Assembly: GCF_018771565.1 (NCBI RefSeq) | Contig: NZ_CP076326.1 | Coordinates: 1,550,001 to 1,614,000 of the forward strand | DNA length: 64,000 nt | Source of the DNA: Thermoflexus hugenholtzii | GTDB lineage: Bacteria > Chloroflexota > Anaerolineae > Thermoflexales > Thermoflexaceae | Reading direction: 5' to 3' | Shown here: positions 3,118 to 62,106 of the stretch, piece after piece | How positions within the stretch are numbered: position 1 is the first letter of the stretch | Layout: the number at the start of each line of letters is the position of its first letter | Position numbers and translations under genes: made by a program | The notes under the pieces: generated by a model | What the model was told of the DNA's origin: nothing | The model's input: only the letters and a program-made list of their open reading frames with translations | Database searches by the model: none

Positions 3118-3145
3118 GTAGGGCAACTGCTCGCAGCTGCCCTAC
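3118..3145. repeat. palindromic repeat, degenerate copy of the 80-bp element
   Basis: Arms GTAGGGCAACTGC and GCAGCTGCCCTAC around a 2-base centre, with one mismatch. The bases after it (GATTTGGGGACATACCCCC) are a diverged form of the right end of the 80-bp element seen at 7217 and 62019. The left end is not recognisable here, so this is an old, decayed or partial copy. Confidence 0.75.
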
Positions 3146-3178
3146 GATTTGGGGACATACCCCCCCAGGGATCCCCCT

Positions 3179-6030: not shown

Positions 6031-6056
<26 letters not shown>
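4446..6056 (-). CDS. threonine synthase-like PLP enzyme fused to a response-regulator receiver domain
   Basis: A 536-residue fusion. Residues 1-30 form a zinc ribbon (CAAC ... CPRCG), common in bacterial threonine synthases. Residues about 70-400 are a fold-type II PLP enzyme: [10 protein letters not shown] holds the Schiff-base lysine (Lys107) and [11 protein letters not shown] is the phosphate/substrate loop. The known reaction is O-phosphohomoserine to threonine. From residue 414 to the end lies a complete CheY-like receiver: acidic pocket VDDD, phospho-acceptor Asp465 in [12 protein letters not shown], Thr495 and Lys517, all present. The start ATG at 6056 opens the zinc ribbon and overlaps mtnA by 26 bp; upstream codons are unlike any enzyme. 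No stop or frameshift separates the two parts. What a receiver does here is unknown: phosphorylation-controlled threonine synthesis, or dimer control, are inferences. Confidence 0.85.
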
Positions 6057-7107
<1,051 letters not shown>

Positions 7108-7208
7108 GCAGAGCCTCCGATCGCGATGGAGGTTGAGAAAGCGCGATCCGCCCTGTGCTCCGGATCTTTACAGATTTTACCCTAAAGCGAGACGAAGATC
7201 TTCCGGAG

Positions 7209-7304
7209 GCGCAGGGGGGTGTGTCCCGATTTTGTCGGGCCTGGCCGCTTTGTAGGACAACTGCGAGCAGTTGTCCTACGATTTTGGGACACACCCGCGC
7301 AGGG
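7209..7304. mobile_element. 80-bp MITE-like element with 8-bp target duplication, copy 1
   Basis: The element proper is 7217-7296. Its ends are inverted repeats GGGTGTGTCCC (7217-7227) and GGGACACACCC (7286-7296). Inside is a perfect palindrome with arms GTAGGACAACTGC and GCAGTTGTCCTAC (7252-7279). It is flanked by the direct repeat GCGCAGGG at 7209-7216 and 7297-7304. Copy 2 at 62019-62098 differs at a single base and has a different 8-bp duplication. There is no coding capacity, so it must be moved by a transposase encoded elsewhere; 8-bp duplications are typical of families such as ISL3 and IS1595. Confidence 0.88.
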
Positions 7305-15279: not shown

Positions 15280-16101
15280 CGATGGCTTCTATTATACCCA
15301 GCCGGCCCGCGCGGGCATCCCCCGACGCGCGGATGGAAGCGAGGTCCGTGGCGAAAGCCCCTCCTACAAAACCATCTTTCTTTTTGTAGGAGCGGCTTTC
15401 GCCGCGACCTTTGTGTCACCGAGAATCAGGGGCTCAGGGGTTGCCGGAGCCGCCTTCACCGCAACGACTCCGCCATCGAAGACGGATGTTCGAGGCGAAA
15501 GCCCCTCCTACAGAAAACCATCTTGGCTCTTCCCTTCCAATGATCGGAGATTGGGATACCGGTCGGCAGCCTGCAGTGGCTCTGCGTGAACCGATGGCCT
15601 AACGAGGGGAGAGAAAATCGATGTGGGAGGCATGGTTGTGTGGGAGCGTCTTTCGTCGCGATCCTTGCCTCATCGAAGACGGAGGTTCGGGGCGAAAGCC
15701 CCTCCTACAGAAACCATCTTTTTGTAGGAGCGGCTTCAGCCGCGACCTTTGTGTCATCGAGGATGGAGGTTTGAAACTGAAGCCCCTCTTACAAAACACG
15801 GGCCGTTGCCCGCTTGAACCGATCGTGCGACGAGAGAGGAGGTAGCCTCCACCCTTCTCCAATCATTCAGAGACATGAGCCACCATCTTTTCGTAGGAGC
15901 GGCTTTCGCCGCGACCATTGCGTCATCGAGAACCAGAGGTTCGGAGTCATCGAAGCGGCTCTCACTGTGACCCTTGCGTTATCGAAAACGAGGGTTCGGG
16001 GCTAAAGCCCCTCCTACTGGAGATATGGACATGGGCTGGGAGGAGGTGTTCCCAGCCCATGTCCCCACGGCCTCGAAAGGTCCTCGCCGTCGGATCTTCC
16101 T
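15280..16101. other. gene-free stretch filled by palindromic repeats
   Basis: Over 800 bases between the IS1 element and the binding-protein gene contain no credible protein gene. Short open frames here only reflect repeat units. The stretch is occupied by at least five units of the GTAGGAGCGGC-type repeat (15351-16017). Confidence 0.75.
15351..16017. repeat. cluster of GTAGGAGCGGC...GCCCCTCCTAC palindromic repeats
   Basis: Units lie at 15351-15367 (right half only), 15386-15511, 15640-15708, 15724-15792 and 15893-16017. Each starts with a form of GTAGGAGCGGCTTTCGCC and ends with its inverse GCGAAAGCCCCTCCTAC. Two sizes occur, about 69 bases and about 125 bases; the long ones contain a second degenerate pair of ends inside. 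Between the ends is a conserved centre with GTGTCATCGAGGA-type sequence. A single left half is also found at 35065-35087. Confidence 0.8.
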
Positions 16102-35064: not shown

Positions 35065-35121
35065 GTAGGAGCGGCTTCCGCCGCGACCCCTCGCCTCTGC
35101 AGGCCGAAATCCATTTCGGCC
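35065..35121. repeat. half repeat plus palindrome
   Basis: 35065-35087 is a left half of the GTAGGAGCGGC-type repeat seen at 15.4-16.0 kb. It is followed at 35102-35121 by GGCCGAAAT-CC-ATTTCGGCC, nearly the same palindrome as 4399-4417. Together they fill the gap after the Cys-rich gene and may end its transcript. Confidence 0.6.
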
Positions 35122-37338: not shown

Positions 37339-37399
37339 GGGCTCCGGAGCGGGGAGCCATCCAGGCAGGCCGTTCGCTGAAGCAGTGCGGCGGGCTGCT

Positions 37400-37427
37400 G
37401 TAGGGCAACTGCTCGCAGTTGCCCTAC
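37400..37427. repeat. perfect 28-bp GTAGG...CCTAC palindrome
   Basis: Arms GTAGGGCAACTGC and GCAGTTGCCCTAC, 13 bp, around TC. Same core as the 80-bp element's internal palindrome but without its outer ends. Lies between the L,D-transpeptidase and folE genes and could act as a hairpin at the end of the former's transcript. Confidence 0.75.
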
Positions 37428-37508
37428 ATGATCCCGGCGTGGGTTTTTGTCTGCTTCCGCCCCGGCGGATTAAGATGGATAAGATGCTCACGGGAGAGGA
37501 AGAGGCGC

Positions 37509-61373: not shown

Positions 61374-61913
61374 TTACCAGCCCTCGAGGTATTTCCGCCA
61401 TTCCGCATACTCCCGCAGGTAGGCCCCGAAGAGATAGCGGATCGTGGGGACCGGCTCGAAGGGCGGACGGAGCAGGGTCATGTGAGCCTCCGCCGGCGTG
61501 CGGTTTCCCTTGCGACGGTTGCATGCCGGGCAGGCCGCCACCAGGTTCTCCCAGGTGTGCCCCCCGCCCCGATGCCGCGGGATCACGTGATCCACCGTGA
61601 GATACGGGGAGGACCGCCCGCAATACTGGCAGGTATACTGATCCCGCCGGAGGATCTCCCGCTTGGTCAGACGGAGCCGGCGAGGCGGCCGGCGCACCAC
61701 ATAGCGCAGACGGATCACCGAGGGGCGGGGGAAAACCCGGGAGGGCGTGCGCACCTCGCCCCGGCCGTTCTCCAGGATCTCCGCCTTCCCGCTGAGCACC
61801 AGGGCGATCGCCCGGCGGAGGGAGCAAACGTTTAACGGCTCGAAGTTGGCGTTCAGCACCAACACCGGCTCTCGAAGCGGCGATAGGGATGAGAACCTCC
61901 TTGAGGCCTCCAT
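61374..61913 (-). CDS. HNH endonuclease
   Basis: 179 residues. N-terminal [29 protein letters not shown] is typical of chromosomal HNH proteins; the nuclease has [48 protein letters not shown] with two CxxC zinc pairs and the HV/N/H catalytic set. A housekeeping, non-mobile type common in Chloroflexota and cyanobacteria, function unclear. Minus strand, 25 bases upstream of DUF2905. Confidence 0.93.
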
Positions 61914-62010
61914 GGCTTCAACCTTCCTGCCGCTGGCTTCTCCGGGCGGATCGGGAGATCTCGAACGCGCTCTCGCCCTCCATTATAAACACAGGAAGCC
62001 GGATCCGCCA

Positions 62011-62106
62011 GCCGGCGGGGGTGTGTCCCAATTTTGTCGGGCCTGGCCGCTTTGTAGGACAACTGCGAGCAGTTGTCCTACGATTTTGGGACACACCCGC
62101 CGGCGG
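62011..62106. mobile_element. 80-bp MITE-like element with 8-bp target duplication, copy 2
   Basis: Element 62019-62098, ends GGGTGTGTCCC and GGGACACACCC, internal palindrome GTAGGACAACTGC/GCAGTTGTCCTAC. It differs from the copy at 7217 only at base 12 (A instead of G). It is flanked by the direct repeat GCCGGCGG at 62011-62018 and 62099-62106. The different duplications at the two loci prove independent insertion events. Confidence 0.9.

Follow-up and report, generated by a model that had tools for sequence, protein, structure and literature searches.

The origin of a short repeat

Two nearly identical 80-bp repeats lie in the stretch of Thermoflexus DNA analysed here (64,000 bp, hereafter the window; positions 1,550,001-1,614,000 of a genome assembled as a single contig of 3,316,678 bp). 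A first-pass annotation, made from the letters of the window, had described a small non-autonomous mobile element. Its description of the two copies was confirmed by direct comparison of positions 7217-7296 and 62019-62098, which are identical at 79 of 80 positions. Both copies are bounded by a perfect 11-bp terminal inverted repeat (TIR; GGGTGTGTCCC/GGGACACACCC), contain the inner perfect palindrome GTAGGACAACTGC-GA-GCAGTTGTCCTAC, and are flanked each by an exact 8-bp direct repeat of their own (Table 1). Of the two partial relatives that had also been listed, the one at 3118 is indeed a truncated copy, whereas the one at 37400 is the inner hairpin only. Around this solo hairpin, the alignment with the same-genus genome G001 is broken at window positions 37375-37441, the two sides matching different G001 contigs; this may be a point of rearrangement or of assembly.

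Table 1. Features of the window, with positions counted from its first nucleotide
Feature	Position	Strand	Remarks
MITE copy 1, 80 bp	7217-7296	+	100% match to genome copy 1753921-1754000; 79/80 identical to copy 2
Copy 1, left 8-bp target duplication GCGCAGGG	7209-7216		Direct repeat; single target copy in G001 empty site
Copy 1, right 8-bp target duplication GCGCAGGG	7297-7304		Direct repeat
Copy 1, left TIR GGGTGTGTCCC	7217-7227	+	Same end as ISKra4-type IS L207
Copy 1, right TIR GGGTGTGTCCC	7286-7296	-
Copy 1, inner 28-bp perfect palindrome	7252-7279		Separately dispersed REP-like repeat
-10-like TAAAAT near copy 1	7174-7179	-	37 bp from left MITE end, towards mtnA; no clear -35
mtnA (S-methyl-5-thioribose-1-phosphate isomerase), adjoins copy 1	6031-7107	-	TIGR00512, 456.9 bits (cut-off 279)
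MITE copy 2, 80 bp	62019-62098	+	100% match to genome copy 2038641-2038720
Copy 2, left 8-bp target duplication GCCGGCGG	62011-62018		Direct repeat; single target copy in G001 empty site
Copy 2, right 8-bp target duplication GCCGGCGG	62099-62106		Direct repeat
Copy 2, inner 28-bp palindrome	62054-62081
-10-like TATAAT near copy 2	61982-61987	-	31 bp from left MITE end, off-peak, towards HNH-type gene
HNH-nuclease-type gene, adjoins copy 2	61374-61913	-	Family matches all below cut-off
Truncated old copy: hairpin and degraded right end	3118-3162	+	Also present in G001
Solo hairpin, 28 bp	37400-37427		Related module, not a MITE copy; no TIRs, no duplication

Copy number and target duplications

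The 3.32-Mb genome contains the TIR 11-mer GGGTGTGTCCC 87 times and its reversed control not once, so chance does not account for it. A genome-wide count, which the first-pass annotation had proposed as a check, located about 50 copies bounded by TIRs. Their length is 78-80 bp in most cases, with variants of 50, 63 and 116 bp, and 37 of the 38 compared copies of exactly 80 bp differ from the consensus at 0-7 bases. Exact 8-bp flanking repeats were found at 24 of 50 copies, and repeats with at most one mismatch at 36 of 50; re-paired flanks lead one to expect 0.49 and 0.85, respectively. The duplication reads as 7 or 9 bp at some copies. The repeat is thus short, TIR-bounded, devoid of coding capacity and present in many copies, and it has both target-site duplications and empty sites, which supports its assignment as a MITE family, a tiny mobile element without genes. 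A pair at 2329257-2330534 that was considered as a 1.28-kb IS is really two separate copies flanking an ordinary gene. No match to the 80-mer was found in the plasmid collection searched.

Empty sites and age of the insertions

Empty sites were sought by comparing the joined flanks of 12 copies with eight genomes of the same genus. For both window insertions, G001 has an empty site with a single target copy (GGAGGCCCAGGG/CCTTCC, L290; GCCAGCCGGCGG/GTTGAGG, L266), within flanking DNA that is about 93-98% identical; because of these empty sites, both insertions are lineage-specific. Five further insertions gave empty or near-empty sites in G001 or G004: the copy at 3133912 aligns as a clean single-target site, that at 2091774 as an empty or near-empty site in G001, those at 368138 and 571854 likewise in G004, and that at 2038641 also in G004 with more divergence. 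Other copies are common to several species, for example at four loci shared with G001 or G004. The movement had been presumed recent. This holds for the two window copies, which post-date the split from G001, but not for the many copies that species have in common. Since some sites are empty and other copies are shared, the family has been active for a long time.

Spacing to predicted promoters

The flanks were searched for -10 boxes, defined as TATAAT with at most one mismatch; all promoters mentioned here are consensus matches. With distance windows (12-18 and 35-44 bp) that were chosen after inspection of the flanks and with prior knowledge of the published figure of 13-17 bp, 23 of 49 copies were found to have a -10 box at 35-44 bp from one end (shuffles: 0.7 expected, maximum 4), and full -35/-10 pairs with the -35 starting 12-18 bp from the end were found in nine flanks on the right and two on the left (0.09 in shuffles). 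Clear -35 boxes start about 14-17 bp from the MITE end. Elsewhere in these flanks, 10-bp windows contain 0-3 -10 boxes each. The peak is sharp, at 36-41 bp, with empty neighbouring distances, and the box is on the right only in 14 copies, on the left only in 8 and on both sides in one. At least one match (L016) is probably due to chance, given its position next to the 3' end of a tRNA gene, and about half of the copies, including window copy 2, have no recognizable promoter at the peak distance. Neither window copy is among the clearest cases: copy 1 has its -10-like box at 37 bp with no clear -35, and that of copy 2 lies at 31 bp. In the empty-site alignments the promoter sequence pre-dates the insertion, an example being the TTGACA...TATAAT that G004 has at the 571854 site. 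Among 15 copies in relatives for which no shared G000 site was found, the signal is similar but broader, with eight -10 matches at 30-49 bp and two elsewhere. In five copies of G001 and G004, a -10-like box lies at 45-47 bp and not at 36-41 bp, an outward shift of about one duplication length.

Several ISKra4-group members have been reported to insert 13-17 bp upstream of sigma-A promoters, on both sides if their ends are symmetric (PMC3942029). The spacing of the MITE to its predicted promoters matches this published targeting.

It could be argued that the association results from selection and not from targeting, copies persisting near promoters because they serve as insulators or terminators. 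The whole 80-mer is indeed predicted to fold into a very stable branched structure with paired TIRs (-47.5 kcal/mol, z -7.3), the hairpin is followed by GATTTT in one orientation, and tRNA genes follow directly downstream of six copies. However, selection of this kind is very unlikely, given the sharpness of the 36-41 bp peak, the occurrence of promoters on either side and the same spacing at the IS loci described below; moreover, the inner hairpin was not flagged by a terminator scan.

Source of the transposase

The NCBI ISKra4 model was run over eleven genomes. It returned no match in the genome that carries the window, where the family therefore looks orphaned. In G007, of the same genus, the remnant of an ISKra4-type transposase lies just inside an end, GGGTGTGTCCCAAGTTTGTCGGG, that is nearly the left end of the MITE. 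When this fragment was used as a query over 396 genomes of the class, a complete IS of 1419 bp was found in another genus (L207), with GGGTGTGTCCCAA at both ends and a 9-bp duplication (ATTGACCTA). An IS with the same ends, which the first-pass annotation had suggested looking for, thus exists. The L207 transposase is matched best by far by model NF033572 (E 7e-48), at 163.7 bits; as this is below the curated ISKra4 cut-off of 205, it is called ISKra4-type and not a confirmed member. The MITE and L207 resemble each other only over the first 13-16 bp. The 8-bp duplications of the MITE, like the 9 bp at L207, are of the length known for ISKra4-derived elements. From these ends, which L207 and the G007 remnant share with the MITE, an L207-type IS is the likely donor of the ends, and the MITE appears to have been mobilized by an ISKra4-type enzyme from another source. 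In its own genome the family is probably inactive now, unless the enzyme arrives by transfer.

That the mover belongs to another transposase family with 8-9 bp duplications, such as ISLre2 or IS256, and that the 13-bp likeness to L207 is a coincidence, is a very improbable reading. Short ends can converge, and the L207 transposase also matches the ISLre2 model as its next best, far more weakly (E 8e-21). Against this, two independent ISKra4-type loci, L207 and the G007 remnant, have the same ends as the MITE and a -10 box in one flank each, both at 39 bp; and IS256 insertion is reported to be random (PMC3942029).

No intact IS with the MITE ends (GGGTGTGTCCCAANTTTGTCGG) was found in the genus Thermoflexus. 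A scan of the genome collection for IS ends returned longer related MITEs and no complete IS, and IS-end patterns derived from contig ends of G004 matched only those contig ends. Several other candidates were discarded. A 501-bp region in L085, considered as an IS deletion product, is filled with unrelated GTAGGAGCGGC repeats, and a search with it was uninformative. Locus L190 of G020 has an IS-like end without a transposase, the ISKra4 copy in G003:C8 is a different IS with ends AGGTGCATTTCAGTTT, and G004:C244 1263-2929 consists of two short hairpin-less copies flanking chromosomal genes.

A nested 28-bp hairpin

The inner 28-bp palindrome is a repeat of its own, of REP-like type, so that the 80-mer is composite: the hairpin is dispersed alone in sister genomes, where it has no target duplications. 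Dozens of solo hairpins with unrelated flanks occur in G003 and G007, and a direct duplication was found at none of the 34 loci analysed in these genomes. At nine of the 34, site-specific inverted extensions add at least four further paired bases to the stem (1.2 expected, maximum 5 in 2000). Conversely, the MITE exists without the hairpin. A 48-bp hairpin-less copy in G004 has a perfect duplication (GACGGCGC), and one and the same insertion is a 50-bp hairpin-less copy in G000 and the 80-bp form in G001. Loss of the hairpin is the simpler reading of such copies. Elements of about 244 bp with closely related ends were also observed in Thermoflexus sp. RSWP15 (L183, 3342-3585) and in a Chloroflexi MAG (L184, 584-827). 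Their interior is different but includes the same GTAGGACAACTGC hairpin, which is therefore not restricted to a single type of MITE.

Y1 enzymes are not known to produce 8-bp duplications such as those of the 80-mer. The proposal that the 80-mer is a REP/REPIN mobilized by a RAYT (Y1 tyrosine transposase), with incidental outer repeats, can draw on the GTAGG start and CCTAC end of the inner hairpin, as in GTAG-type REPs (PMC3733652), and on the Y1 transposases and GTAGGAGCGGC repeats of the genome, but it is largely refuted for the 80-mer, the solo hairpin excepted, and is highly improbable: besides the duplications, hairpin-less copies exist with intact ends and duplications, GTAG is paired with CTAC inside the stem instead of standing unpaired at its foot, the array at the Y1 gene of L159 belongs to another repeat family, and neither repeat occurs at the remaining Y1 loci that were examined. 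Among these loci, no Y1 gene flanked by the MITE hairpin was found; at L159 the flanking repeats are GTAGGAGCGGC, and the hairpin occurs only within a MITE copy.

Another family of repeats, GTAGGAGCGGCTT...GCCCCTCCTAC, is arrayed at window positions 15341-16022 and also occurs at 35065. Repeats of this type lie on both sides of the Y1 tyrosine transposase gene at L159 (529-2125), an arrangement that looks like a REPtron.

The solo hairpins pose a further question, that of a palindrome spread without target duplications. A search for Y1 transposases gave no match in G003 or G007, both draft assemblies. On account of this, of the inverted extensions and of the missing target duplications, we tentatively raise the possibility, itself rather unlikely, that the hairpin is a mobile unit of an undescribed kind. 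If so, the 80-mer would be one mobile element nested in another, promoter-targeting one.

A model for movement and insertion

The 80-bp repeat is very probably a MITE of the ISKra4 kind (prokaryotic Mutator-like, p-MULT 4), moved in trans and targeted upstream of sigma-A promoters. This reading draws on features of the sequence, namely the ends, the duplications, the empty sites, the promoter spacing and the IS with matching ends; the action of an ISKra4-type enzyme on the MITE, and targeting through the transcription machinery, are what we infer from them. The 80-mer would retain only the inverted ends recognized by the transposase, which would be supplied in trans by an IS no longer seen in the genome that carries the MITE. 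The most likely course is that an ISKra4-type transposase binds the near-symmetric ends and then excises or copies the element, which would be joined to promoter-adjacent DNA with duplication of 8 bp, sometimes 9. The transposase may steer insertion towards pre-existing sigma-A promoters, to a point that lies upstream of the -35 box by about 14-17 bp and of the -10 box by 35-44 bp. The near-symmetry of the two ends would allow the promoter to lie on either side. For TnGBS, targeting by interaction with a subunit of RNA polymerase has been proposed (PMC3942029). The interior 28-bp REP-like hairpin is a separate repeat that can be absent while the ends remain.

Insertion at a fixed distance from promoters is reported for ISKra4-group and TnGBS/ISLre2 transposases and is unusual among those of prokaryotes. 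An 80-bp passenger that behaves in the same way suggests that short ends and the enzyme suffice, and would provide a minimal substrate for the study of promoter-targeted insertion. In addition, the approximately 50 copies serve as pointers to probable promoters in a thermophile that has received little study; six of them immediately precede tRNA genes.

Comparison with known systems

MITEs as such, and insertion of ISKra4-group elements upstream of promoters, are well known. The repeat resembles bacterial MITEs such as RUP, Nezha and ERIC (PMC3733652) in being short, non-coding, TIR-bounded, multi-copy and stably folded. In the open-access papers searched, no report was found of a MITE that targets promoters at a fixed distance, or of one that has a REP-like hairpin nested in it. 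The inner hairpin is short, palindromic and dispersed and starts with GTAGG, like GTAG-tagged REPs, which have been reported from Chloroflexi (PMC3733652). It differs from them in that GTAG is paired in the stem, the solo copies have inverted flank extensions, and no hairpin array adjoins the Y1 genes examined.

TnGBS and ISLre2 (p-MULT 3) also insert 15-17 bp upstream of sigma-A promoters (PMC3942029). They are large ICEs or ISs, however, and are oriented with IRr towards the promoter, whereas either end of the MITE may face it. With the ISKra4 family (p-MULT 4 ISKra4 group; Guerillot et al. 2014, PMC3942029), the repeat shares the ends of the ISKra4-type ISs found here, duplications of 8-9 bp, and insertion about 13-17 bp upstream of the sigma-A -35 box, on both sides where the ends are nearly complementary. 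Unlike members of that group, it has no transposase, measures 80 bp instead of about 1.4 kb, and has an unrelated hairpin as its interior.
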